IMG/VR virus record: IMGVR_UViG_3300042338_000020
Coordinates: 1 to 36,549 of that record
Direction: 5' to 3' (one strand)
From: a virus
Length of the DNA: 36,549 bases
Position numbers and translations under genes: made by a program. The notes beneath the pieces were generated by a model. That model did no database searches. It was given only the letters and a program-made list of their open reading frames with translations, and was not told the DNA's origin. Position 1 is the first letter of the stretch; every line of letters starts with the position of its first letter. Of this stretch, positions 790 to 36,549 are shown one piece after another.

Positions 790-2126
790 ATCCTTGCTCT
801 CCTTGTCGTCGTGCGGTCGTGAACCGCCCACATATCGTTTAGCGTGACTGTGTTCTCTGGCCCCACCATCAGCGGCTTGACCTCTGGCGCTGGGGGCTTG
901 TCAGCGACTTCAGACCATGATACCGCAACCATACGGAAAGCGTCACTAGGGTGTGATGTCCAATCGTGGCGCGGTGACTGACGATAGGCTTTCTTGTCCT
1001 CGTCGTATTCGCGTTGAAATTGGCGCAGCGCCTCAATACCCTCGCTGCATTTCTCGGCGTCAAACCACACACGCGGTAGCATCATGCGAACGGCTTGTAT
1101 GCCTGACTGCACACCGATGTCGGGGACGACAGCGAGTTTGGCGATGTCTAGTTGCGCCGCCAGCTGCTCAATGATGCTTTTGCCGGTCTGTAGGCTTTTG
1201 GCCCGAGCGTCGTGCGGTAGGTAGTGCTTGGCGTAACGGTACGGCTTGTTGCGTACCACATCGGCAATGGTGTGGATGTCCTCACCCGAGACGGCGTAGA
1301 AGTCTATGACGCGGATTTCCCCACGGGCGACCTGATAGAACCAGATGGCGGTGTCGTCGCGGTAGCCCAAATCCCAGCCGGTAAATGTCGGCAAGTTGGG
1401 GTCGTATGGAACGTTGGTGATGCGACCTTGTTCTGTCGCCTCGCGCATCTCTTTTCCAAAAAAAGCACCGAGGATCGCAGCCTCAAAGCTGCACTCGTAC
1501 TCCTGTAGGTACTGATCCTCGGCTAACTGCGCCTTTGCTGCGGCTAGCTCTGTCGCAGGGAGAAGCCCGCTGGTTGAGGCGGGAAGGCGCAACAGGAACC
1601 ACTCGCTAGGGAGACGAGTGGCGGTATCGTAAATTTCCCAGAACTGGTTTTTGCCTTTCGGTGTACCGCCGAAAACGCACCAACCCTGCTTGTCTGACAG
1701 GGACGCTCTCAACACGTTCCCGAATACGCTCGGCTTAAAGTCACCGTACTCGTCAAGGTACAGCCCCGAAAAGCCTAGACCGCGCATGGCGTCAGCGTTG
1801 TCGGCACCGAACAGGCGTATCTGACTGCCGTTGATTAGCGTGATGGTCAGTTCCTGCTCGTTGATGCTTTGGATGATCGGGTGTGCGCCGTCCTTGAAGT
1901 ACTGCCATGCCACGGCCTTTGCCTGACTGCGGTAAGGGGCGACGTAGCCGAACAACCCATAAGGCTGCTGGTACATCGCAGCAGCGCGGATCATGTCGTT
2001 GACGGCGGCGACGGTCTTGCCTGCGCGGCGATGTGCGACAAGGCAAGCCCAGCGTTTCGTGCGCTCATGGAATGGCATGAACGCCTTGCGTGGGCGATAG
2101 GGCAGGATTATTCGGGAGCCATCCAT
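786..2126 (-). CDS. terL: Terminase large subunit (copy A)
   Basis: 446-aa DNA-packaging motor with an N-terminal ATPase and a C-terminal RNase H-like nuclease (Terminase_6 / phage terminase type). Walker A is at residues 31-38 (AHRRAGKT), Walker B at 122-126 (LYLDE), and a coupling motif FGGTPKG follows at 152-158. The likely nuclease acids are D252 (GWDLGYRDD), D306 (PHDA) and D395 (HPSDAF). It overlaps the end of the small terminase gene by 19 bases and the next gene by 4 bases. Compared with copy B it has 21 substitutions, none at these motif residues except Leu/Ile at 122. Both copies are full length and look functional, so neither is decaying. Confidence 0.95.
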   Translation of the reverse strand: MDGSRIILPYRPRKAFMPFHERTKRWACLVAHRRAGKTVAAVNDMIRAAAMYQQPYGLFGYVAPYRSQAKAVAWQYFKDGAHPIIQSINEQELTITLINGSQIRLFGADNADAMRGLGFSGLYLDEYGDFKPSVFGNVLRASLSDKQGWCVFGGTPKGKNQFWEIYDTATRLPSEWFLLRLPASTSGLLPATELAAAKAQLAEDQYLQEYECSFEAAILGAFFGKEMREATEQGRITNVPYDPNLPTFTGWDLGYRDDTAIWFYQVARGEIRVIDFYAVSGEDIHTIADVVRNKPYRYAKHYLPHDARAKSLQTGKSIIEQLAAQLDIAKLAVVPDIGVQSGIQAVRMMLPRVWFDAEKCSEGIEALRQFQREYDEDKKAYRQSPRHDWTSHPSDAFRMVAVSWSEVADKPPAPEVKPLMVGPENTVTLNDMWAVHDRTTTRRARI

Positions 2127-2383
2127 CCGATCTGTACCTTGACCGGGCCGTTGTCCTTACCTGTGATCTCTTGGCGGGCGAGTTTGGGAACGTGGTATTC
2201 CAGCAGGGTGCTGAAGGCGTCAAAGGCGGCTTGCGCTCCCTTCTCCGCAGCGATTTCGTCTAACCACCCTTGGAGTCTGTCTGCGTTGCCGTCCACAAAC
2301 GCTGCAATGGCCTCTCTGGCGGCCTGTGTGGACTTATTAGGCGTACCCGCTTGCCTACCGCCTGTTTTCTTACCCTTTGCCAT
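2108..2383 (-). CDS. terS: Putative terminase small subunit
   Basis: 91-aa basic-then-acidic protein (starts MAKGKKTGGRQAGTPNKST) directly upstream of terL and overlapping it by 19 bases. The GGRQAGTPNK opening followed by a helical segment is common in small phage proteins encoded just before terL. The role as DNA-recognition subunit is inferred mainly from position, because I cannot identify the fold. No good ribosome site precedes the ATG at 2383. A second copy, lacking the first few codons, lies at the right edge of the window. Confidence 0.65.
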   Translation of the reverse strand: MAKGKKTGGRQAGTPNKSTQAAREAIAAFVDGNADRLQGWLDEIAAEKGAQAAFDAFSTLLEYHVPKLARQEITGKDNGPVKVQIGWMAPE

Positions 2384-2397
2384 CTGTTTAGGTCTAC

Positions 2398-2427
2398 TTT
2401 AGATTTAATCGTTTAGCGTGGTATACT
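2398..2427 (+). promoter_or_regulatory. Promoter with GTTTAG operator-like element for the 73-aa gene (leaderless)
   Basis: TTTAGA (2398-2403), 18-base spacer, TATACT (2422-2427), then only 6 bases to the ATG at 2434, so transcription should begin at or next to the A of the start codon. GTTTAG at 2411-2416 followed by 4 bases and GTATAC forms an imperfect palindrome over the -10. The same arrangement (GTTTAG, 5 bases, TANACT) is seen at 7219-7235 and, on the - strand, at 7174-7190. A further GTTTAGG lies at 2386-2392. Confidence 0.55.
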
Positions 2428-2433
2428 AACGGC

Positions 2434-2655
2434 ATGAAATCAGAAATAGAGACTCTGACGCCTTACGTCAATACTGACGTTAAGATTCCCCGCAAAATGT
2501 TAGACGCTTTGACGCTGCATGAGTTCTCATGTGCAGCGCAAGACATCCACGCGGTGTCGGCGCAGAGCGTTGAGGCATTCTTGCTTGCTCGGTTTAGCAA
2601 GAAACTTGCCTCGCAATTCAAGCCAGAATACCTCATTAGAAGCCCATCCGTTTGA
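2434..2655 (+). CDS. Isolated 73-aa protein on the opposite strand (moron-like)
   Basis: Small + strand gene placed between the leftward genes for the 400-aa protein and the small terminase. I do not recognise the product. It is mostly helical by eye, with the pattern VKIPRKMLDALTLHEFSCAAQDI and a basic C-terminal half, and it has no obvious helix-turn-helix or membrane segment. There is no ribosome site. A TATACT box ends 6 bases before the ATG, so the mRNA is probably leaderless, as for some phage regulators. The 3' end overlaps the end of the convergent 400-aa gene by 20 bases. An independent promoter inside an opposite-strand operon is the classical look of a moron. A regulatory role is possible but unproven. 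Confidence 0.6.
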   Translation: MKSEIETLTPYVNTDVKIPRKMLDALTLHEFSCAAQDIHAVSAQSVEAFLLARFSKKLASQFKPEYLIRSPSV

Positions 2656-3838
2656 GGATGTCCTCGGTGATGCGCCCGTAGTAGGGCTTCATCTGCAAGG
2701 CGCGGATATCCTGTTGTGAGGGGTTGCGCGGGTCTGCAACACCCCGAGCCTTCGCTACCGGCTCCAATAGCTCATATACGCGCACATCTTCTTTGATGCG
2801 GCCAATACCCTCGCCGGGGACGCCTGTGGGGTAAGCGGGGTGTCCTGACTTTGCAACGATTGGCTTATCGGTATAAATGCGCCCGACGTTCTGGATTCCG
2901 GTGTCAGGGGCTACCAGTTGGCGCGGATCGGTCACGGCTACTCTTGCCTCGCCAATACCTAACCCACCCTGCTCTCGGAAGTTTACGTCCAGCTTTTGCT
3001 TGATAAGTTTGCGAATGCTGTCTTTTGCGGTGCGGAACTGCTGCATCGCCCGTTCTGATCCTAGCCCCGCCCAATCGGGGATCAGTTTGCCAATTTCGGC
3101 GTCAACTGACTTTTTAACCTTTTTCGGCAACGCGGCGTCAGCGTAATTCAGCATAGTTTCGCCGGTCATACTCGCAAAGTCGCCCCCCGTTGGAGCCATG
3201 CGCCACGGAATATATAGCGGGTCTTGCCCGGTGATGACTTTGACTTCTTCAGCCAGCTTTTGGATTTGCTTGGTCGGGCGAACACCTGACGCCCATACCA
3301 TGCCGGGATTCTCAAACATGAAGTCCTGACCGCCCTGCAAATTTACCGGCTGTCGGAACTCTACATCGTTGATGCCCCGCAATAACCCGCCTGCGGCGGT
3401 GCGATCAGACATACTAGTAATAAAGGGGCGGCCTTCCAAATCCGCAATAGAAATTTCGGGCGCGTTGACGGTGCCTCGGCTTTCTACTTGCGGCTCTAAT
3501 TTTAATAACTTTTCGCGTTCTTTAACTCTTGGGTCAAATCGCGGATCGTAATCAGCAACCTTTGCCATCGCAGGGTCAAAGCCCTTCAACGCACCGATCA
3601 ACCGGCCTACCGGCACAGCAGATGCAGCGGCCATTGCCATACCGGCCTCGTCATCGGCTCGGCGGGCGCGTTCAAAGTCGCGGGCAGCGAGGGCTTGGCC
3701 TACGCCGGGGATAAAACTGCCGCCCATCTCCAGCGCCATGTCCACGGCGTCAGACTCTTGCGGTTGATCCAAACTCGTTAGCCGCTTTGCCTTCTCGTCA
3801 ACGTAGGCGAGTGCAGCGGCAAGGCGTTTGCGATTCAT
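2636..3838 (-). CDS. 400-aa protein of unknown function upstream of terminase
   Basis: I do not recognise this protein. It has a helical N-terminus, a Gly/Ala-rich segment near residues 39-100 (GSFIPGVGQALAARDFERARR and AMAAASAVPVGRLIGAL), then a mixed alpha/beta C-terminal domain of about 270 residues rich in charged and Gly-Pro turns. The composition of the N-terminal part resembles ejected or capsid-associated phage proteins, while the C-terminal part could be an enzyme domain. The start codon at 3838 overlaps the stop of the 96-aa gene by 4 bases (ATGA), which fixes the start. The 3' end overlaps the convergent 73-aa gene. Confidence 0.75.
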   Translation of the reverse strand: MNRKRLAAALAYVDEKAKRLTSLDQPQESDAVDMALEMGGSFIPGVGQALAARDFERARRADDEAGMAMAAASAVPVGRLIGALKGFDPAMAKVADYDPRFDPRVKEREKLLKLEPQVESRGTVNAPEISIADLEGRPFITSMSDRTAAGGLLRGINDVEFRQPVNLQGGQDFMFENPGMVWASGVRPTKQIQKLAEEVKVITGQDPLYIPWRMAPTGGDFASMTGETMLNYADAALPKKVKKSVDAEIGKLIPDWAGLGSERAMQQFRTAKDSIRKLIKQKLDVNFREQGGLGIGEARVAVTDPRQLVAPDTGIQNVGRIYTDKPIVAKSGHPAYPTGVPGEGIGRIKEDVRVYELLEPVAKARGVADPRNPSQQDIRALQMKPYYGRITEDILKRMGF

Positions 3839-4125
3839 GCCTTGTTCCTGCTGCTGATGGCTTTGGCCTTGGCTCGGGCGTCCTCCTTGCTAGAGGCTCC
3901 CCATGCCTTAAGTGCGAGGGCAAGGCGTGTCGGTTCGCCGTTCTTCGCCATCGGCCCCGGCATATTGCCCATCCGAGCGAGGAAAGAGGCTCGGCGTGGA
4001 TTGTCGCCCGACTTAACCGGGGGCTTCAACGTGCCGCCTGTCTCGGCTTTATACGAAGCGCGACCCTTGGCGTTCAGCCCGCCTTTCGGGTTCTTGCCCT
4101 CGCTGCGTGTCCACGCGGCTGTCAT
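3835..4125 (-). CDS. Conserved 96-aa phage protein (DUF6321-like)
   Basis: Very basic 96-aa protein (NPKGGLNAKGRASYK, GDNPRRASFLARMGNMPG, SSKEDARAKAKAISSRNKA). This set of motifs is typical of a small family found in many phages and called DUF6321 in my memory of domain names. The family has no known function. The abundance of Lys, Arg, Gly and Pro suggests nucleic-acid or phosphate binding. It starts with an ATGA overlap with the 52-aa gene upstream and ends in an ATGA overlap with the 400-aa gene, so it is translationally coupled on both sides. Confidence 0.75.
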   Translation of the reverse strand: MTAAWTRSEGKNPKGGLNAKGRASYKAETGGTLKPPVKSGDNPRRASFLARMGNMPGPMAKNGEPTRLALALKAWGASSKEDARAKAKAISSRNKA

Positions 4126-4280
4126 TTGTTTTCTTTCTTGGCCGTCTTGGCGCTCTCACGAAACGCCTTGGCGGTCGGTGCGCCGGGTTCGCCGGGTTTA
4201 CGCATACGCTCGCCCGAACCGGCCTTGATGCGCTCCTGCTTTGCCAAAATGTTGGCGTAGAGTCCCGGCTTACGGTTCAT
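4122..4280 (-). CDS. Small basic 52-aa protein
   Basis: Read directly from the - strand: ATG at 4280, TGA at 4122-4124, 52 codons, ending with Lys-rich KTAKKENK. It fills exactly the gap between the 122-aa and 96-aa genes and overlaps both by 4 bases (ATGA), which strongly supports it as a real gene despite its size. The sequence includes LYANILAKQERIKAGSGERM and KPGEPGAPTAKAF. I do not know a function. Its Gly/Pro/Lys-rich style matches the 96-aa neighbour. Confidence 0.75.
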   Translation of the reverse strand: MNRKPGLYANILAKQERIKAGSGERMRKPGEPGAPTAKAFRESAKTAKKENK

Positions 4281-4645
4281 TTAAAACGCTCCAGTTTGTA
4301 CAGAAGGGAGGCGATCTCGCCCACGATCTCGTCAATGATGTTCTGCAAGTCGGTGTCTTTCGGCAGGTCATCCCGAATGCCCTTGACGAACGTCAGCAGG
4401 CTGTTGGCGTATACAGCGGCGTCCTTCTGCACCTTAAACCCCTCAGGGTAGTCAGCGAGGGGCATGATGCCGTAGTGGCCTTGATATGCCTCTGCGTACT
4501 TGTCGGCCAAGTCCACGATGTTCTGGTAGTAGTGGCCGAGTGCCTTGTGACTCGCGTAGCTCGCCGTCTGCAAATGAAGGAAGTGCGTGGCGGTACTGCT
4601 ATGCAGCAATACGCCTACAAATTCGGCGGCGTCTTTGTGGCTCAT
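4277..4645 (-). CDS. 122-aa helical protein (DUF5856-like)
   Basis: The start is the ATG at 4645, which overlaps the upstream methyltransferase stop (ATGA). A longer in-frame start at 4777 would lie inside that gene and is rejected. The protein is nearly all helical, with conserved-looking THFLHLQTASYASHKALGHYY, which recalls small four-helix (ferritin/Dps-like) proteins and the phage family I know as DUF5856. It has His and Glu/Asp residues spaced as possible metal ligands, but this is only suggestive. It is coupled to the 52-aa gene downstream by another ATGA overlap. Confidence 0.7.
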   Translation of the reverse strand: MSHKDAAEFVGVLLHSSTATHFLHLQTASYASHKALGHYYQNIVDLADKYAEAYQGHYGIMPLADYPEGFKVQKDAAVYANSLLTFVKGIRDDLPKDTDLQNIIDEIVGEIASLLYKLERFK

Positions 4646-5253
4646 TGCGGCGTCAGCCTCAAGTTGGGCAGGATGATTGCAGTCGTAGCATCTCCCACCG
4701 CATAACGCTCTGTCAAGTAACGCTCGGGCGGGTACACAAGGATGCGCTGCGATAGGTCTATCTGCATCGCGTTCCACACCCCTTTCTCTATGCCTTCAAA
4801 GTCATCCAGCGTGATTACGGTGTCAGGCGTGAACAGGCGCTCAAGGTGCGGCTTGTCGTCAGGCTGTAAGCGTCCGTCTAGGTGCAGCAGGTCAATATTG
4901 CCGTCTAGTTTGGCGAGCATCTCGGTGCTGCTGCTATGGTACTGCGTGATAGAGGTGGTCAGCGGCAACTTGAAGTCGTGCGTCATGTCGCAGGTGTGTA
5001 CGTCTGCGCCCTCTCTCGCTAGCACAAACGTGGACTTGCCGATGTAGGTGCCGATCTCGGCCACAACCTTGGGTCGGAAGTGCCGTATAACCGCCCACAA
5101 CGCGATTAGGGAGGCGTGGTTAGTGCTGCCGGTACGTCGGGCAGGGTCTAATTTCTCCAAGTCCTCAATAACGTGCCACGGCAAGTCAGGCAGGTCAGCA
5201 AAGAGGGTGTCCCATATCGCACGGGATAGTCGTTTTCGGTTCACGTTTAGCAT
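4642..5253 (-). CDS. Class I methyltransferase-like protein (Methyltransf_24 type)
   Basis: 203 aa with a SAM-binding motif I near residues 61-76 (VVAEIGTYIGKSTFVLA), a DMTHD segment after it, and the later LLHLDGR and VITLDDFEG motifs seen in Methyltransf_24 / CmcI-like enzymes. The substrate is unknown; proteins of this kind are often found beside phage or cell-surface glycosyltransferases. The ATG at 5253 follows TAGGA at a suitable distance. The divergent + strand glycosyltransferase starts only 11 bases away, so the pair shares one control region. It is coupled to the 122-aa gene by a 4-base overlap. Confidence 0.75.
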   Translation of the reverse strand: MLNVNRKRLSRAIWDTLFADLPDLPWHVIEDLEKLDPARRTGSTNHASLIALWAVIRHFRPKVVAEIGTYIGKSTFVLAREGADVHTCDMTHDFKLPLTTSITQYHSSSTEMLAKLDGNIDLLHLDGRLQPDDKPHLERLFTPDTVITLDDFEGIEKGVWNAMQIDLSQRILVYPPERYLTERYAVGDATTAIILPNLRLTPQ

Positions 5254-5258
5254 ATATT
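5245..5258 (+). promoter_or_regulatory. Possible -10 and GTTTAG element before the + strand glycosyltransferase
   Basis: GTTTAGC (5245-5251) is followed by TATATT (5253-5258), which ends 6 bases before the ATG at 5265. No ribosome site is present (TTTGTCCT), so a leaderless start is possible, with the same -10 to ATG distance as at 2434. I see no good -35, and the spacing between GTTTAG and the -10 is shorter than in the other copies. Confidence 0.3.
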
Positions 5259-5264
5259 TGTCCT

Positions 5265-5927
5265 ATGTTTGTTTTCTTCCACGTTGGCGACGACATCGCC
5301 ATGCCCACCGCAATGGTCTTTTCCATTCGCGCCCACAACCCTGATGCGACCATTATTCAGGTCACAGACGACAAGACGCCAGCCGTACCCGGTGTCTCGC
5401 GGGTATTTGTGACGCAGGGCAATCGGCAGTACCTGATGCAATGGCGCACCAATGCTTTTGCGGAGTTGGGGCTGACGGAACCAGCGATGTACATGGATAC
5501 CGACATGATCATGCGGCACCCCCTTGACCCGGCTGCCGTGCTGGAGGGCGTCGTTGCGATGACCCGCCGTGAATTTAACCGTGACGCGGGGTTTAACCCA
5601 CGCCAGCGCGGTCAGGATTATTCCGAATACACCGGCAAGACGTTGGACGAGGTGTACCCGTATGTCGGCTGCTGCACGATTACGGCTGATTGGGGTGTGT
5701 GGGCTGACCTTGCCGAGATGTACAACGTCCTGCCCGATAAGTTCCGCGTGTGGTACGGGGATCAGGAGGTTTTGCGGGAATACGCTAAACGGGTGAAGGT
5801 GCAAGACCTGCCCGAGTCGCATTACGCGTGTCTGCCCGAGTTTCTGCCGCAACATCCCGACCCCGCTATCGTTCACTACAAAGGCGCTCGCAAGGCACTC
5901 ATGCCTAACGTAGCTGCTCGGGCTTGA
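5265..5927 (+). CDS. Glycosyltransferase-like protein (GT-A fold), isolated on + strand
   Basis: 220 aa. The N-terminus reads like a GT8-type nucleotide-sugar transferase (MVFSIRAHNPDATIIQVTD), and a DxD metal/nucleotide motif lies at D78-T-D80 (MYMDTDMI), with a later WYGDQEVL segment. It would transfer a sugar from a nucleotide donor, perhaps to phage DNA, virion or host glycan; the acceptor cannot be read from sequence. It lies alone on the + strand between leftward genes, starts 11 bases from the divergent methyltransferase gene and overlaps the convergent VRR-NUC gene by 23 bases. This looks like an inserted moron. A second, unrelated-looking glycosyltransferase is at 9885-10553. Confidence 0.75.
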   Translation: MFVFFHVGDDIAMPTAMVFSIRAHNPDATIIQVTDDKTPAVPGVSRVFVTQGNRQYLMQWRTNAFAELGLTEPAMYMDTDMIMRHPLDPAAVLEGVVAMTRREFNRDAGFNPRQRGQDYSEYTGKTLDEVYPYVGCCTITADWGVWADLAEMYNVLPDKFRVWYGDQEVLREYAKRVKVQDLPESHYACLPEFLPQHPDPAIVHYKGARKALMPNVAARA

Positions 5928-6225
5928 TGGCGGCTAGATAACGCTCCATCAACTCACGCACCGTGGCCTCGGGATCACGCGCAACATAAAACTCGCCGCG
6001 TGGCTCAAATATCGCTTGGAACCTTTCTTGGCTCGGGCGTAGTTTTCCTTTTTCTACTTTGATTTCTACCCAACACACCCACGGTGTTCCGTCGGGCAGA
6101 TTCCGCACGACGAGACGATCTGGTACGCCGCCGTTTAAGGCGAAGTCTAAAACGGTGAACCCTGCCGCGTGTAGCGCCCGGCCAATAAGGCCATCGTTCG
6201 CATCCCGCCTCGCCTTGTATCTCAC
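5905..6225 (-). CDS. VRR-NUC domain nuclease
   Basis: 106 aa, a size typical of stand-alone phage VRR-NUC (PD-(D/E)XK superfamily) nucleases. It shows GGVPD with D36, then W-V-E54-I-K56 and Q66 in KGKLRPSQERF, which is the family core. These enzymes cut DNA junctions or ends. The start codon is GTG at 6225 (GTGAGATAC), because no ATG lies before the domain. The ribosome site is weak. It follows the 107-aa gene by 47 bases. The 3' end overlaps the convergent glycosyltransferase. Confidence 0.85.
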   Translation of the reverse strand: MRYKARRDANDGLIGRALHAAGFTVLDFALNGGVPDRLVVRNLPDGTPWVCWVEIKVEKGKLRPSQERFQAIFEPRGEFYVARDPEATVRELMERYLAAIKPEQLR

Positions 6226-6272
6226 TTCGTGCCTCGTTGATGCAGCGGCCTAACCAGATAATCCACCACGTT

Positions 6273-6596
6273 CTATTGCTCCGCTTTAACTCTGGCACGA
6301 AGTCTCTCCACAGCCTTTTCACCCCAGAGCTGGCGTACCAGCCCAATCGTATCCCTATCCGACAATACGGCAGCAGCGCCAGCCTCTCGGATCAGTTCAG
6401 CGACCCTATCACGGTTGACCTCAACGCCTCTGGCTAACTGCGCGTCGTAGAACTTTAAGCGGTTCAGCGGGGATTCCTGTACTGCCGAATTCCACATAGC
6501 CTGATTGGAGTGGAACTGGTGTTCTAGGTTGTGACTGGGTTTAGGCTTTTCCGGTTGAGCCTGTTTAGTCGGAAAGTAAGTGAATTCATCACCCAT
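6273..6596 (-). CDS. 107-aa protein of unknown function
   Basis: A hydrophilic, mostly helical protein that I do not recognise. The N-terminal 35 residues are Pro/Gln/His-rich and look disordered; the rest is amphipathic (LNRLKFYDAQLARGVEVNRDRVAELIREAG). The ATG at 6596 has a clear AGAGAGG ribosome site 6 bases upstream. It is the first leftward gene after the roughly 400-base hairpin-rich stretch that follows cro, so it is probably transcribed from the cro promoter. Confidence 0.75.
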   Translation of the reverse strand: MGDEFTYFPTKQAQPEKPKPSHNLEHQFHSNQAMWNSAVQESPLNRLKFYDAQLARGVEVNRDRVAELIREAGAAAVLSDRDTIGLVRQLWGEKAVERLRARVKAEQ

Positions 6597-6622
6597 ATAT
6601 AACCTCTCTATGGTTTAGAACT

Positions 6623-6944: not shown

Positions 6945-6952
6945 GCGTCAAG

Positions 6953-6983
6953 CCCCCATCGTGTTTCCCGATTGGGGGTTTTT
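6953..6983 (+). terminator. Rho-independent terminator, + strand
   Basis: CCCCCATCG (6953-6961) pairs with CGATTGGGGG (6969-6978), giving a GC-rich stem with one bulge and a 7-base loop, followed directly by TTTTT (6979-6983). The T-run is on the + strand side, so it ends rightward transcription, either of a local RNA or of read-through from the glycosyltransferase gene at 5265. Confidence 0.7.
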
Positions 6984-6998
6984 CGTTTCTAGCGTCCA

Positions 6999-7166
6999 CT
7001 AACGTCCTTTTGGTGGCTTTATAGCCCCGGCCTTGATCTGCCACAGCCTGGCTGCAGGGATCGCACCAGCCTTCACCCATTGGCTGACAGCACCTTTCGT
7101 TACCCCAAGTGCCAAGGCCACAGCCTGCTGGCTACCGTATCGTTTGATGAGCTTTTGGATGTCCAT
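6999..7166 (-). CDS. Cro-like (YdaS-type) helix-turn-helix regulator
   Basis: 55-aa protein read from the - strand (ATG 7166, TAG 6999-7001). It has a classic small Cro/YdaS pattern: QQAVALALGVTKGAVSQW at residues 13-30 is the helix-turn-helix, followed by VKAGAIPAARLWQI. It should be a DNA-binding repressor dimer acting on operators between itself and the divergent early operon. It has no ribosome site. A TAGACT -10-like box ends 7 bases before the ATG, so its mRNA may be leaderless. No larger CI-type repressor gene is seen opposite it. It is the first gene of the leftward transcript. Confidence 0.85.
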   Translation of the reverse strand: MDIQKLIKRYGSQQAVALALGVTKGAVSQWVKAGAIPAARLWQIKAGAIKPPKGR

Positions 7167-7173
7167 GCTCGGG

Positions 7174-7202
7174 AGTCTACCGGCCTAAACTTTTTTTGCC
7201 TA
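7174..7202 (-). promoter_or_regulatory. Leftward promoter/operator of cro
   Basis: On the - strand: TAGGCA (7202-7197), 17-base spacer, TAGACT (7179-7174), then 7 bases to the cro ATG. GTTTAG (7190-7185), 4 bases, GTAGAC (7180-7175) is an imperfect copy of the palindrome found over the rightward promoter. This places a likely Cro site over its own promoter, as expected for autoregulation. Confidence 0.5.
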
Positions 7203-7207
7203 GGGTG

Positions 7208-7235
7208 TTGACATGGGCGTTTAGGTTGCTAAACT
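7208..7235 (+). promoter_or_regulatory. Early rightward promoter with palindromic operator
   Basis: TTGACA (7208-7213, perfect -35), 16-base spacer, TAAACT (7230-7235). A perfect inverted repeat GTTTAG-GTTG-CTAAAC (7219-7234) covers the spacer and -10, so a dimeric regulator bound there would block RNA polymerase. It drives the early operon beginning at 7271. The first gene has a normal leader with an AGGAGC ribosome site. Confidence 0.75.
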
Positions 7236-7270
7236 GGGAACCGTTGATAAACACAACAGGAGCAATAGAT

Positions 7271-7549
7271 ATGCCACGCAAAGACACATTCCACGGTTTC
7301 GGCACCTTCTACGCCCTCAACAACAAGTTTGAGGTGCGCGTGGAGTACACCCAAGACCTAGATGGCGGCATTATCCTTGAGGCTGCCGACCTGATCGGCA
7401 TCTTCCTTGACAAAGACAAGGTTGCCTCATCGCTTAACCACGACATCAAGCTAGACATTTGCGACCTCGGTGCAGATGCCATTTTTGAGCTTGAGGAAAT
7501 CGCCACCAACGACGCGCTGATGAACGGCCCGTGGGGAGACGAGCTGTGA
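7271..7549 (+). CDS. First early protein, 92 aa, unknown
   Basis: The start is the ATG at 7271 with AGGAGC 8 bases before it; an upstream in-frame start at 7196 would overlap the promoter and is rejected. The acidic 92-aa protein contains HGFGTFYALNNKFEVRVEY and an Asp/Glu-rich middle, and it looks alpha/beta. I do not recognise it. As the first gene behind the strongest promoter it is likely made at once after infection, so a host-takeover or regulatory role is plausible. Its stop overlaps the GTG of the next small gene (GTGA). Confidence 0.75.
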   Translation: MPRKDTFHGFGTFYALNNKFEVRVEYTQDLDGGIILEAADLIGIFLDKDKVASSLNHDIKLDICDLGADAIFELEEIATNDALMNGPWGDEL

Positions 7550-7668
7550 GCCGCTGGTTACCCCAAGCCATTCTGCTTGTAGTGCTATACGCCACAGCAG
7601 CCATTCTTGACCCGTGCGGCGACGGCGGCTGCACTCCGGCAGAGGAGCGCGCAGCTCATGCACGATGA
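7546..7668 (+). CDS. 40-aa small membrane protein
   Basis: GTG start at 7546 overlapping the previous stop (GTGA), 40 codons, TGA at 7666-7668. Residues 5-22 (LPQAILLVVLYATAAILD) form one membrane segment or a signal anchor, followed by two cysteines (C24, C29) and a charged tail. It overlaps the next gene by 11 bases. Small single-pass proteins of this sort are frequent in early phage operons; the function is unknown. Confidence 0.55.
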   Translation: MSRWLPQAILLVVLYATAAILDPCGDGGCTPAEERAAHAR

Positions 7669-7819
7669 CGACATGACTTGGTGGCATCACCAAGACCAAC
7701 TAATGCAAGAACTGGAAGAACAGCAGCGCATAGACGCCTGCAACAAGGCTTTGGCCGAACTGATGGCCGTCATTAACGAACAATTGGAGAAGGTCAATGA
7801 GCGAACTGCTCAAAATTAA
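7658..7819 (+). CDS. 53-aa acidic coiled-coil protein
   Basis: ATG at 7658 chosen because it lies at the end of the 40-aa gene; a start at 7607 would sit inside it. The protein is highly charged and helical (DQLMQELEEQQRIDACNKALAEL), probably a short coiled coil. It overlaps the annealing-protein gene by 23 bases, which suggests coupled translation. It is possibly a partner of the recombination proteins, but nothing in the sequence proves it. Confidence 0.6.
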   Translation: MHDDDMTWWHHQDQLMQELEEQQRIDACNKALAELMAVINEQLEKVNERTAQN

Positions 7820-11876: not shown

Positions 11877-12070
11877 AAGACGACGTTAGCCCGCCGGGTG
11901 CGTGGAAGGAAGAAATGGAACGCGCACCGTGGGCGTTTGGGCAGCGCCAAGGGGATCGGGTAGCCAATGCGCTTGTGGCGATGCGCCGAGCCGGGTTAGC
12001 CGATGACGCAATGGTGCTAGAGATGGAGATAAAGACGCTACGCGCCGAATTAGAATACTTACGCCGCTGA
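11870..12070 (+). CDS. 66-aa helical protein ending in the tRNA
   Basis: Charged helical protein (GAWKEEMERAPWAFGQRQGDRV, then EMEIKTLRAELEYLRR, a short coiled coil at the C-terminus). Unknown function. Its TGA stop (12068-12070) is also the first three bases of the tRNA-Gln gene, so processing of the tRNA 5' end must cut the mRNA at its stop codon. Confidence 0.65.
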   Translation: MVKDDVSPPGAWKEEMERAPWAFGQRQGDRVANALVAMRRAGLADDAMVLEMEIKTLRAELEYLRR

Positions 12071-12316
12071 AGGGTCGTCTAACGGTAGGACAACGGACTT
12101 TGACTCCGTGAATGTTGGTTCAATCCCAGCCCCTTCAGCCACTTTCGGCGGCCAGCGGAACGGTGCGGTGCGTAGGTAGTATTTGCCTATGCAGATGCAC
12201 AGGCCGCCGAGGTACTGGTGTTCGTGCGAGCAGTAATACCCTTGGCCGTTGGCAGGGCAGAAAAAAACGCAGTCCTGACAGCCGTTAGGGACTACCCAAC
12301 TCGGCTGCGTAGCCAT
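12059..12316 (-). CDS. Cys-rich 85-aa protein running into the antisense of the tRNA
   Basis: From the ATG at 12316 the first 60 or so residues look like a small metal-binding protein: CQDCVFFC, then C and H in GYYCSHEH and GGLCICIG. It overlaps the end of the phosphoesterase gene by 25 bases. The last 26 residues (GAGIEPTFTESKSVVLPL) are simply the reverse strand of the tRNA-Gln gene and should not be trusted as a protein domain. No strong ribosome site is seen. The N-terminal part resembles the Cys-rich protein at 8330, so a real gene that ends across the tRNA is possible but uncertain. Confidence 0.4.
   Translation of the reverse strand: MATQPSWVVPNGCQDCVFFCPANGQGYYCSHEHQYLGGLCICIGKYYLRTAPFRWPPKVAEGAGIEPTFTESKSVVLPLDDPSAA
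12068..12141 (+). tRNA. tRNA-Gln (anticodon TTG)
   Basis: A complete cloverleaf folds by hand: acceptor TGAAGGG/CCCTTCA, D stem GTC/GAC, anticodon stem ACGGA/TCCGT with loop CTTTGAC (anticodon TTG), T stem GTTGG/CCAGC with loop TTCAATC, discriminator G and an encoded CCA end (12139-12141). It reads CAA and, by wobble, CAG. It ends the early operon. The phage has very glutamine-rich virion proteins, which could explain why this is the only tRNA it carries. Confidence 0.95.
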
Positions 12317-32643: not shown

Positions 32644-34661
32644 TGATTAAACGTAGTTGGGGGTAGCGTTTTGTTCATCTGCGCGATGATTAAGCGCGTT
32701 TGGGCGTCCATGTCGGCCTTGTACTTGGCGGCTTCCTGCTGACTTTGCAGCTTCATCGCCTCCAACTGCGCCTCAAACTGCTGCTTTTGTTGCTCCATCG
32801 CCAGTTTCGTCTGGTTTTTGAGCTGTTCCATCTGCATCTGCTGCTGCAGTTTGGCTTGCTGTAGCGCGGCCTCCATCTGGATGCGGCTTTGCTCCATCTG
32901 ACCCTTTTGCTGCAACTCGGCTTGCTTGCCTTGCTGCTCGCCGTCTGGGCCTTGCTGCATCGCGGCTTGCTGCAACTGCTGCAACGTGGCGTCAATCTGA
33001 CCCTCAATCGGTCGTGCGGCCTTAAACGCCTGCATACCAAAACGCAGCAACTCCATCATCATCGGCACCATCTGCGGCGAGGCTTGGCCGACCGGCAGGG
33101 CTTGCGCGAGGAAGCCACCAAACGCTTGCAGGAACTGCATACGATCCTGCTTCATCTGGTTCTCGTCCAACATCACAAGGCTGTCGGCGGCAACGTCCAC
33201 GCGGAAGTTACGCAGCGGCTTGTCTTTGAGCAGTTCCAGCGCCTGCGGGATCAACTGCTGATCCGCTGGCGTCATCTGACCTGCGGCGGCGTAGGCAAGG
33301 ATGGTCTGTGGCTGGAAGTGTCGGCACATCACCTGCGCCTTCAACCGGATCAATTCCGACGCAAAGAGGGCAACGTCCTCCTGCATGGAGCGCAGCCTTA
33401 ATCCCGCGTATTGGCCTTTGATTTGCTGCGCGGTCGCGGTTTCGCTGGCGAACGACGTACCACGGATAATGTCCGAGATGCCTGTGATTTCGTAGATTTG
33501 GGACTTGATGTCCTCTCTTGCTCGGTAGCAGTTGAGGAGGGCGTTGGCGAGCGTGTCCAGCGGGAGAAGGTCAATGCTGCCTTTAAGGCCGCCCTTTTCG
33601 CTGAAAGCCATCCACTTATCAACTGGAATAAGCGCATTGTTATCGCCCTCCGTCATTAGGCGTTGCAGCGCAGGTTGGCTGGCGTCATACACGCCACGCA
33701 CACGCAGCGCCTTCACCAAGCCATCAATGCGGTCGGACAGGATGTCCAACTCCATCGCCTGATCTTGGTACAGCAGAAAGTCAGGCACCGGCACCAAGGT
33801 GTCGCTGGTCGTGGTGGCGTACAGCGGCTTCGGGCAGGGGAAGAACCCCTCAAGGCCGAGCGGGTCGTCACGCACATCAATGATCTGCGGCATACCCTTG
33901 CAGAACCAGTACACCTTCTCGGTTTCCTTGTCCCACAGTTCACAAATCTTTGCGCGGTTATAGGTGCGCTTGGCTTCGTTGTAAGCGTTGAGCGGCTCTG
34001 GGCCTTGGTCTAGCGGTATCCTGCGAGCCATCTCCTCGCCAAACCGCTCTGCCAGCGCCTCACGGCTCATGTACACCCAGCGCCATACGCAGGTGACTTC
34101 TTCCCATGTGCGAGCCTGTGAGTGGCCGAAATCACGCCAATGGATGTAATCCACCGGGGCGCACTCGTACTCAATCTGCTCTAAATTCGGCGGCGCACCC
34201 TCGCCCTGCTCAATGTTGGAGGTAATGGATACGCCATCGTCCTCAATGCCAATCGGCGCAACGTGCGGCTCGTAGCGTACCCATGCGGTGCCACGGCCAC
34301 CCAAGAACCGATCTTCCACGCCATAGGACATGGTTGAGCGGAAGTCGGGGTAATGCTCAATCTCAAAGTCAATCGCCCGCTCTAGCAGTTGTCCTGCCAC
34401 GCGGCCAACCGGGTCGTTGTCACCAAAGCGTCGGCTAATGTCAGCCTTGGGGAGCTTGGCGTAAACCGCAGGCTTCAGCGTCTGGACGTTTGACCAGAGG
34501 ATGTTGAACCGTGCAGCCTCGTTGCCGCCCTGCCCACGACTATCGTCACGATAGCGTTTGACGATCTTCTTGGTTCGCGCCGTCCATTTAGCGAACTCGG
34601 CGTCATACTGCGCGATGGTGCGGAGGTACTTTTCCAGTTCCGGTTGCAGTATGCCTTCCAT
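32640..34661 (-). CDS. Portal protein (P22-like)
   Basis: 673 aa from the ATG at 34661 (MEGILQPELEKYLRTIAQYDAEF); a frame extension to 34724 lies inside the 100-aa gene. The size and order suit the P22-type portal of short-tailed phages (P22 portal about 725 aa). Motifs such as FNILWSNVQTLKPAVYAKLPKADISRRFGD, then a wing and stem (DILSDRIDGLVKALRVRGVYDAS) and GTSFASETATAQQIKGQYAGLRLR are typical. Residues 553-660 are a Gln/Lys/Glu-rich coiled coil that could form the internal barrel. It forms the dodecameric DNA entry ring and works with terL. Confidence 0.92.
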   Translation of the reverse strand: MEGILQPELEKYLRTIAQYDAEFAKWTARTKKIVKRYRDDSRGQGGNEAARFNILWSNVQTLKPAVYAKLPKADISRRFGDNDPVGRVAGQLLERAIDFEIEHYPDFRSTMSYGVEDRFLGGRGTAWVRYEPHVAPIGIEDDGVSITSNIEQGEGAPPNLEQIEYECAPVDYIHWRDFGHSQARTWEEVTCVWRWVYMSREALAERFGEEMARRIPLDQGPEPLNAYNEAKRTYNRAKICELWDKETEKVYWFCKGMPQIIDVRDDPLGLEGFFPCPKPLYATTTSDTLVPVPDFLLYQDQAMELDILSDRIDGLVKALRVRGVYDASQPALQRLMTEGDNNALIPVDKWMAFSEKGGLKGSIDLLPLDTLANALLNCYRAREDIKSQIYEITGISDIIRGTSFASETATAQQIKGQYAGLRLRSMQEDVALFASELIRLKAQVMCRHFQPQTILAYAAAGQMTPADQQLIPQALELLKDKPLRNFRVDVAADSLVMLDENQMKQDRMQFLQAFGGFLAQALPVGQASPQMVPMMMELLRFGMQAFKAARPIEGQIDATLQQLQQAAMQQGPDGEQQGKQAELQQKGQMEQSRIQMEAALQQAKLQQQMQMEQLKNQTKLAMEQQKQQFEAQLEAMKLQSQQEAAKYKADMDAQTRLIIAQMNKTLPPTTFNQ

Positions 34662-34663
34662 GA

Positions 34664-34966
34664 TTAGGCCGTGAAGAATCCAACAGCCATGACCGCAAGC
34701 CCTGCGCCGGTCGTGATCTTCCACGGGCCGCTGGCAGAGGCAGCGTTGATCTCAAGGCTGTAAACGCCCACAGGGGTGTTTGCAGCCATCGTCAACACCG
34801 TTGTGCTGTTGTCCAACACGCTTAAGGTGCTTGTGCCGGTCGTCGTGACCGTCACCACAATGCGATGAAGGTAGTCACCCACGGCACCTGTGCCACCGAG
34901 TATCTGTGCGGTCTGCGAGGCGGCAACTGTTTCGTAGGGGTAACGATTCGGGCTGACAATGCTCAT
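34664..34966 (-). CDS. Conserved 100-aa protein between terminase and portal (copy B)
   Basis: Second copy of the gene at 487-789, with the same ATGA overlap with terminase. I see no base difference between the two copies, so it belongs to the conserved block of the repeat. The complete portal gene follows 2 bases after its stop. Confidence 0.75.
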   Translation of the reverse strand: MSIVSPNRYPYETVAASQTAQILGGTGAVGDYLHRIVVTVTTTGTSTLSVLDNSTTVLTMAANTPVGVYSLEINAASASGPWKITTGAGLAVMAVGFFTA

Positions 34967-36303
34967 ATCCTTGCTCTCCTTGTCGTCGTGCGGTCGTGAA
35001 CCGCCCACATATCGTTTAGCGTGACTGTGTTCTCTGGCCCCACCATCAGCGGCTTGACCTCTGGCGCTGGGGGCTTGTCAGCGACTTCAGACCATGATAC
35101 CGCAACCATACGGAAAGCGTCACTAGGGTGTGATGTCCAATCGTGGCGCGGGGACTGACGATATGCTTTCTTGTCCTCGTCGTATTCGCGTTGGTACTGG
35201 CGCAGCGCCTCAATGCCATCGCTGCACTTGGTTGCGTCAAACCACACACGCGGTAGCATCATACGAACGGCTTGTATGCCCGACTGCACACCGATGTCGG
35301 GGACAACAGCAAGTTTGGCGATGTCTAGTTGCGCCGCCAGTTGCTCAATGATGCTCTTGCCGGTCTGTAGGCTCTTGGCCCGAGCGTCATGGGGTAGGTA
35401 GTGCTTGGCATAGCGGTACGGCTTGTTGCGTACCACATCGGCAATCGTGTGGATGTCCTCGCCCGAGACGGCGTAGAAGTCTATAACGCGCAGTTCCCCA
35501 CGGGCGACCTGATAGAACCAGATGGCCGTGTCGTCGCGGTAGCCCAAGTCCCATGCGGTGTACGTCGGCAGATTCGGGTCGTACGGCACGTTGGTGATAC
35601 GGCCTTGGTCTTGCGCCTCGCGCATTTCCTTACCGTAAAAAGCACCGAGGATCGCAGCCTCAAAGCTGCACTCGTACTCCTGCAGGTACTGATCCTCGGC
35701 CAACTGCGCCTTTGCTGCGGCTAGCTCTGTCGCAGGGAGAAGCCCGCTGGTTGAGGCGGGAAGGCGCAACAGGAACCACTCGCTAGGGAGACGAGTGGCG
35801 GTATCGTAAATTTCCCAGAACTGGTTTTTCCCTTTCGGTGTACCGCCGAAAACGCACCAACCCTGCTTGTCTGACAATGCAGGGCGTATGACGTTCCCAA
35901 ACACGCTCGGCTTAAAGTCGCCGTACTCGTCAAGGTAGATGCCCGAGAAGCCTAGGCCGCGCAACGAGTCAGCGTTATCAGCACCGAACAGGCGTATCTG
36001 TGCGCCGTTAATCAAGGTGATGGCTAACTCTTGCTCGTTGACCGATTGAATGATCGGGTGTGCGCCATCCTTAAAATATTGCCATGCAACGGATTTGGCC
36101 TGCGACCTGTACGGTGCGACGTATCCGAACAGCCCATATTGCCCTTGATACATCGCAGCAGCGCGGATCATGTCGTTGACGGCGGCGACAGTCTTACCTG
36201 CGCGGCGATGTGCGACAAGGCAAGCCCAACGTTTCGTGCGCTCATGGAACGGCATGAACGCCTTGCGTGGGCGGTAGGGCAAAATTATTCGGGAGCCATC
36301 CAT
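34963..36303 (-). CDS. terL: Terminase large subunit (copy B)
   Basis: 446 aa with the same Walker A (31-38), Walker B (122-126, Ile instead of Leu at 122) and nuclease Asp residues 252, 306 and 395 as copy A. The substitutions relative to copy A include 54-55 (GQ for QP), 113-114 (SL for AM), 141-142 (PA for AS), 231-232 (QD for TE) and 358 (T for E). All are conservative or on the likely surface, and many further base changes are silent, so both versions are under purifying selection. In a closed genome this is the same locus as copy A. Confidence 0.95.
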   Translation of the reverse strand: MDGSRIILPYRPRKAFMPFHERTKRWACLVAHRRAGKTVAAVNDMIRAAAMYQGQYGLFGYVAPYRSQAKSVAWQYFKDGAHPIIQSVNEQELAITLINGAQIRLFGADNADSLRGLGFSGIYLDEYGDFKPSVFGNVIRPALSDKQGWCVFGGTPKGKNQFWEIYDTATRLPSEWFLLRLPASTSGLLPATELAAAKAQLAEDQYLQEYECSFEAAILGAFYGKEMREAQDQGRITNVPYDPNLPTYTAWDLGYRDDTAIWFYQVARGELRVIDFYAVSGEDIHTIADVVRNKPYRYAKHYLPHDARAKSLQTGKSIIEQLAAQLDIAKLAVVPDIGVQSGIQAVRMMLPRVWFDATKCSDGIEALRQYQREYDEDKKAYRQSPRHDWTSHPSDAFRMVAVSWSEVADKPPAPEVKPLMVGPENTVTLNDMWAVHDRTTTRRARI

Positions 36304-36549
36304 CCGATCTGTACCTTGACCGGGCCGTTGTCCTTGCCTGTGATTTCTTGGCGGGCGAGCTTCGGAACGTGGTACTCCAGCAGGGTGCTGAAGGCGTCAA
36401 AGGCAGCCTGCGCTCCCTTCTCCGCAGCGATCTCGTCTAGCCACCCTTGGAGTCTGTCTGCGTTGCCGTCCACAAACGCTGCAATGGCCTCTCTGGCGGC
36501 CTGTGTGGACTTATTAGGCGTACCCGCTTGCCTACCGCCTGTTTTCTTA
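36285..36549 (-). CDS. terS: Putative terminase small subunit (copy B, 5' end cut by window)
   Basis: The frame equals residues 5-91 of the small terminase at 2108-2383. The first codons lie beyond the right edge. The C-terminal protein sequence (EITGKDNGPVKVQIGWMAPE) is unchanged. An apparent Met start at 36473 is only an artefact of the truncation (the residue before it corresponds to FVDGNAD in the complete copy). Confidence 0.65.
   Translation of the reverse strand, partial: KKTGGRQAGTPNKSTQAAREAIAAFVDGNADRLQGWLDEIAAEKGAQAAFDAFSTLLEYHVPKLARQEITGKDNGPVKVQIGWMAPE

Follow-up and report, generated by a model that had tools for sequence, protein, structure and literature searches.

The window, by which we mean the whole 36,549-bp stretch of viral DNA analysed here, carries genes for portal, major head and tail proteins as well as Sak and YqaJ, and by its terminase the closest named isolate is Rhodoferax phage P26218, and HTVC010P-like Pelagibacter phages are close as well. 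Its two ends (1-2372 and 34178-36549) are 94% identical over 2,372 bp and each encodes the 446-aa terminase; they form a divergent terminal repeat, which perhaps reflects the assembly of two variants. A tRNA gene is found at 12068-12138 on the + strand. The locus of interest comprises a small cro gene, the early operon on the opposite strand and the promoter region between them, and its features are listed in Table 1 together with those of a distant 73-aa gene. Past the 3' end of cro, a GC-rich hairpin followed by a T run lies at 6950-6985 (+ strand).

Table 1. Coordinates of the genes, promoter elements and putative operators in the window
Feature	Position	Strand	Description
Site C, candidate weak operator/promoter	2411..2427	+	GTTTAG-CGTGG-TATACT; 17.7 bits; before the 73-aa gene
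73-aa gene	2434..2655	+	ATG 6 nt past -10 TATACT; probably leaderless
cro, 55 aa, P22_Cro family	6999..7166	-	recognition helix T23 K24 G25 A26 V27 S28 Q29; ATG 7 nt past -10
Operator B (very probable)	7175..7190 (7190-7175)	-	GTTTAG-GCCG-GTAGAC, imperfect; overlaps cro -10 TAGACT 7179-7174
Early promoter	7208..7235	+	TTGACA-16-TAAACT; conserved in relatives
Operator A (very probable)	7219..7234	+	GTTTAG-GTTG-CTAAAC, perfect palindrome; overlaps early promoter -10; type-I dyad in 53/53 same-helix relatives
Early leader element	7243..7257	+	GTTGATAAACACAAC; at the predicted 5' end of the mRNA; Shine-Dalgarno AGGAG (7258-7262) comes next
First early-operon gene, 92 aa	7271..7549	+	Sak annealing protein and YqaJ exonuclease genes downstream

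The 55-aa product matches the Pfam family P22_Cro (PF14549) over its helix-turn-helix (HTH) with 45.2 bits (curated cut-off 30.2), and YdaS (PF15943) with 39.4 bits, also above the cut-off (30.0). The structure of P22 Cro (PDB 1rzs) matches the same protein at 1.6e-5, and P22 Cro is 48% identical to it over 48 aligned residues. KorA/TrfB (PF16509) reaches 16.8 bits, below its cut-off of 26.7, and aligns with the recognition-helix stretch only. A family search with the first early protein and with the 73-aa protein gave no match for either.

A first-pass annotation of this DNA had reported the motif GTTTAG-N5-TANACT at three places, here called sites A, B and C. Indeed, these three strings lie at the coordinates and on the strands that it gave and are the sole exact matches in the 36,549 bp, against 0.01 expected by chance, and none of 100 shuffled windows contained three. 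Its description of their layout was likewise accurate: site A is a perfect 6-N4-6 palindrome and the second half-site matches at four of six positions in the other two, the right part of every site is in register with a -10 hexamer, and a single small Cro-like protein adjoins two of them, A and B. With a weight matrix built from the A and B sites of relatives only, A scored 25.1, B 17.9 and C 17.7 bits, and the next unrelated place in the window 9.5. TTGACA is present 16 bp upstream at site A; B and C have no good -35. A chance origin of sites A and B was considered and is ruled out by the counts against expectation, the matrix scores and the dyads found in relatives.

To follow these dyads across related phages, as the annotation had proposed, we used IMG/VR, where 92 stretches encode Cro relatives and the best 80 of the 92 were kept; further searches were seeded with divergent-helix proteins. 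Relatives with the same recognition helix keep both dyads at the same positions upstream of cro, their centres 44-48 bp apart, and the 4-bp centre and the flanks vary. At site A of these relatives the -10-proximal half CTAAACT is nearly invariant; at site B the -10 hexamer inside the dyad is variable (TAGACT, TATAGT, TAAACT, TATATT, TACACT). Seven relatives among the best 80 of 92 are 76% identical to the window Cro; their helix is TRAAVQQ, and both of their promoters show a different sequence. Three combinations were distinguished in all: type I, with helix T[KD]GA[VI]S[QH] and operator GTTTAG-N4-CTAAAC (53 distinct pairs); type II, with TRAAVQ[QL] and GTCAAS-N4-CTATCM (42 pairs); and type III, with xxPAVSR and RTTAAC-N4-GTTAAY (26 pairs). 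The type-II and type-III operators occupy the same promoters as those of type I.

All 121 distinct protein/upstream pairs, drawn from 79 distinct proteins, show the operator type that the helix type predicts. They amount to few independent switches, since the helix classes are mostly clades and a tree made without the helix residues has three changes. The type-I dyad scores 11-12 of 12 in type-I regions and at most 9 in type-II and type-III regions, and 0.3% of shuffled upstream regions reach 10. With their own patterns, both of which were read from these same data, type-II regions score 11-12 and 24 of the 26 type-III regions score 11. Two natural chimeras separate the parts of the protein: L286, whose operator is type II, joins a type-II N-terminal half and helix to the exact C-terminal part of a type-I protein, and L285, whose operator is type I, joins a type-I N-terminal half to a type-II-like C-terminal part. 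In both, the operator type goes with the N-terminal, helix-bearing half. L325 shares only 65% identity with the window Cro, but its helix is TDGAISQ and it still carries GTTTAGCAACCTAAAC. Judged from the sequences, sites A and B are very probably the operators of the 55-aa P22-type Cro.

The same covariation bears on the nature of the motif. As the element varies with the Cro helix and the position of the promoter is kept, we regard it as extremely improbable that the motif is a promoter element for a phage-specific RNA polymerase or sigma factor and no operator at all, even though the -10 hexamer is part of it in every case and site B is without a good -35. Against such an element also stand the ordinary TTGACA-16-TAAACT promoter at site A and the scanned ORFs, among which no polymerase or sigma factor gene was found.

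In 53 of 53 type-I regions the -10 and the ATG of cro are 6-8 nt apart, and in the window the 6-7 nt between -10 and ATG at cro and the 73-aa gene put the start of transcription at or beside the ATG, so that both mRNAs are probably leaderless. The early operon, unlike cro, has an ordinary leader with AGGAG. Its 15-base leader element, GTTGAYANAYACAAC, starts 6-7 nt past the early -10 and recurs with all three Cro types and at the second early promoters described below. A stem-loop in this early leader was considered and dropped, as variants such as GTTGATTAACAAACCACA break the pairing.

Among the longer relatives scanned, eight (G002, G006, G007, G008, G012, G014, G015 and G018) have a second early promoter about 415-700 bp from site A with a GTTTAG/GTATAG dyad of its own, and type-III loci have additional promoters with the type-III half-site GGTTAA. 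These second early promoters carry the resident type of operator in type-I and type-III loci alike, and the regulon in relatives therefore extends past the cro intergenic region, although the window itself has no such site. A further comparison concerns the L093/L338 contig, which is 94-95% identical to the window over about 1525-6597 and 88% identical over 7256-7766. Between those stretches only a weak 217-bp match (74%) is found, and the contig has a type-III Cro with type-III operators instead. As this block has been replaced between these flanks, Cro and its operators were exchanged together.

The annotation knew of no described operator with such a sequence, which is wrong at the level of the half-site. 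The operator OA of KorA, from plasmid RK2/RP4, is GTTTAGCTAAAC and overlaps a -10 (PMC2680271), and the YdaS/PaaR2 region of the cryptic prophage CP-933P has 18-bp inverted repeats with the half GTTTAGTAA over two divergent promoters (PMC8630535). The likeness to KorA includes the helix, TRGAVSQ in KorA and TKGAVSQ here, as well as the half-site GTTTAG and the placement of the operator over the -10 (PMC2680271, PMC4889941). The helix stretch LGLTRGAVSQAV of KorA corresponds to LGVTKGAVSQWV at residues 20-31 in the HTH of the window Cro, and KorA 39-55 aligns with Cro 15-31 such that R48 pairs with K24, G49 with G25 and Q53 with Q29. However, KorA has a separate dimerisation domain and half-sites without a spacer, and it straddles the DNA, whereas the protein here has 55 aa and its dyads an N4 centre; relatives of KorA with differing spacers are known (PMC9723621). 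The resemblance is confined to the HTH, and the dimer geometry would differ here.

In co-crystals of KorA with GTTTAGCTAAAC, R48 contacts G5, Q53 contacts T8, C11 and T12, and G49 packs against T7, where other residues or bases would clash (PMC4889941). In type II, G25 is replaced by A and the T is missing at the third position of the half-site (GTCAAS; GGATAG, the inverse of CTATCC). This loss accords with the KorA map, since a change of G25 to A would be expected to clash at T7. In type III, Q29 is replaced by R with different inner bases, and where K/R24 is lost the outer position is A or G. The KorA contacts would thus fit the changes in helix and operator, an agreement that was not built in.

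The geometry of the dyad has a counterpart in P22 and phage 21. Their Cro proteins belong to the P22_Cro family and share S28 and Q29 with the window Cro, and their O_R operators, dyads with a 4-bp centre (ATTTAAG-N4-CTTTAAT), lie upstream of cro; the P22 operators show the same N4 dyad (ATTTAAGTGTTCTTTAAT). Dyads of the cognate type with an N4 centre next to the protein's own cro gene are present at sites A and B, in relatives and in the P22 comparison. The differences are that the half-site here is GTTTAG rather than ATTTAAG, that no CI was found, and that a lone cro, its mRNA probably leaderless, faces the early operon, each promoter having a single operator. The CP-933P region likewise has a YdaS-type Cro, a GTTTAG-type half and a leaderless regulator (PMC8630535), but in that region the sites are also used by PaaR2, a CI analogue, which is the product of the leaderless gene, and the implied spacing of the GTTTAG halves is N6 rather than N4. 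Precedents therefore exist for the family, the dyad geometry and the half-site in P22 Cro, KorA and CP-933P YdaS/PaaR2. As cited in PMC4488713, Hall, Lefevre and Cordes (2005) compared lambdoid phages and proposed a correlation of Cro operator half-sites with recognition-helix residues; beside that correlation, as it is cited there, the present series comes from close, CI-less environmental phages and includes natural chimeras and block exchange. As far as our analysis shows, what is new is the CI-less setting, the three closely related specificities with chimeras, and the exchange as a block.

No S24-type CI repressor was found in 12 genomes (the window and 11 long relatives, several of them incomplete), and no match to integrase PF00589 in the same 12, some of which may be incomplete. 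The genes found thus include neither the competing CI nor the integrase of a lambda/P22-type lysis-lysogeny switch, and it is likely, on this gene content, that the phage has Cro without CI, though the relatives might have a CI that lacks an S24 domain. No other regulator was detected among the window ORFs scanned, which were all but a few small ones. In a pattern search, Rhodoferax phage P26218 had neither a window-type Cro nor the operators, and as this is the closest isolate by terminase, no cultured carrier was found. In bacterial genomes the relatives of Cro were short, weak HTH matches only, with no link to a host or prophage.

Cro and CI use common operators in P22 and lambda. The sites might therefore serve another repressor, CI-like or host-encoded and KorA-like, for which Cro would be incidental or secondary, and KorA does bind the same half-site (PMC2680271). 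That the operator type tracks the Cro helix makes this very improbable, as do the missing S24-type CI and integrase in the window and 11 relatives and the lack of a second regulator among the scanned ORFs.

From the sites, their positions, their conservation and covariation, all of which are read from sequence, we infer binding and repression by Cro, the geometry of its dimer and leaderless translation. A Cro dimer would bind the 16-bp dyads GTTTAG-N4-CTAAAC over the -10 of the early promoter at A and of its own promoter at B. K24, G25 and Q29 would read the half-site in the manner of R48, G49 and Q53 of KorA. The 4-bp spacer would place one half-site about a helical turn from the other (10 bp between centres), similar to the P22 operators. 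Bound Cro would block RNA polymerase and turn the early operon off, and at B it would limit its own synthesis from a leaderless mRNA. Among relatives, Cro and its operators shift jointly to at least two further specificities and can be swapped as a block. We hold this explanation as a whole, with a P22-type Cro on the A and B dyads repressing the early operon and itself, a KorA-like reading of the half-site and block exchange, with high confidence. On the sequence evidence it is a CI-less version of a switch of known kind; its relatives supply a clean natural series of specificities, and Cro is exchanged en bloc with its operators.

A broader interpretation can be offered more tentatively, and we would place it somewhat below an even chance. 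Cro and its operators may form an exchangeable specificity cassette of at least three mutually incompatible types, immunity-like without CI, in CI-less and probably obligately lytic freshwater phages, one type having the helix and half-site of KorA in another dimer geometry. If so, an infecting phage of the resident type would be held back during its early phase, and phages of other types would escape. Our data suggest that CI-less phages can swap Cro-operator blocks much as lambdoid phages swap immunity regions. The 79 distinct Cro proteins, in three helix classes with their own operators at the same promoter positions, also constitute a natural mutational series for protein-DNA recognition, with two reciprocal chimeras and a solved structure, that of KorA, that predicts contacts. 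They open the Cro recognition code to direct tests that need no more than very small proteins and short pieces of DNA.

The annotation had proposed a regulon of three sites. Conservation, covariation, the chimeras and the KorA parallel give very good support to the part resting on A and B; the part resting on C cannot be taken as established. Site C, which precedes the 73-aa gene, is a candidate for a weak third target. It scores like site B, hits scoring at least as high are expected at 0.03 per shuffled window, and it stands in register with a -10, 6 nt before a start codon. The intergenic stretch around it is nearly unchanged in seven other phages, some with genomes otherwise only about 69% identical. 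This conservation was weighed as support for the site and withdrawn, as site C lies inside a longer conserved island and beside non-matching types of Cro. The island also reaches into the coding sequences on both sides, a pattern that local recombination would explain as well as constraint would. Site C is identical in G023/L216, whose Cro is type II, and in the contig of L093/L338, whose Cro is type III. As it is unchanged beside these proteins, site C does not track Cro. Either the segment has moved recently or the site is not maintained by Cro. Moreover, its left half is GTTTGG in two phages, and relatives without the 73-aa gene have no site at that place. Repression of the 73-aa gene by Cro through site C, which would complete the three-site regulon, is therefore a possibility that we put just short of even. 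We judge it nearly an even matter, too, whether site C is a look-alike, that is, a plain -10 region in which GTTTAG stands by chance or as a relic and is unused by Cro. Its persistence beside non-matching Cro types would be expected of a look-alike, and nothing similar lies upstream of the 73-aa gene's more distant homologues, but the low chance expectation and the exact register speak against it.

On the other side of this intergenic stretch is terS (2108-2383, - strand). Upstream of it (2384-2410), relatives of terS have TTGTTT-N16-TAGANC about 7 nt before the ATG, a -10-to-ATG layout that suggests another leaderless gene. Five relatives (L163, L164, L167, L169 and L175) have a direct repeat, GTAAAC-N4-GTAAACT, upstream of terS that overlaps a -10 just before a start codon, possibly the operator of another regulator.
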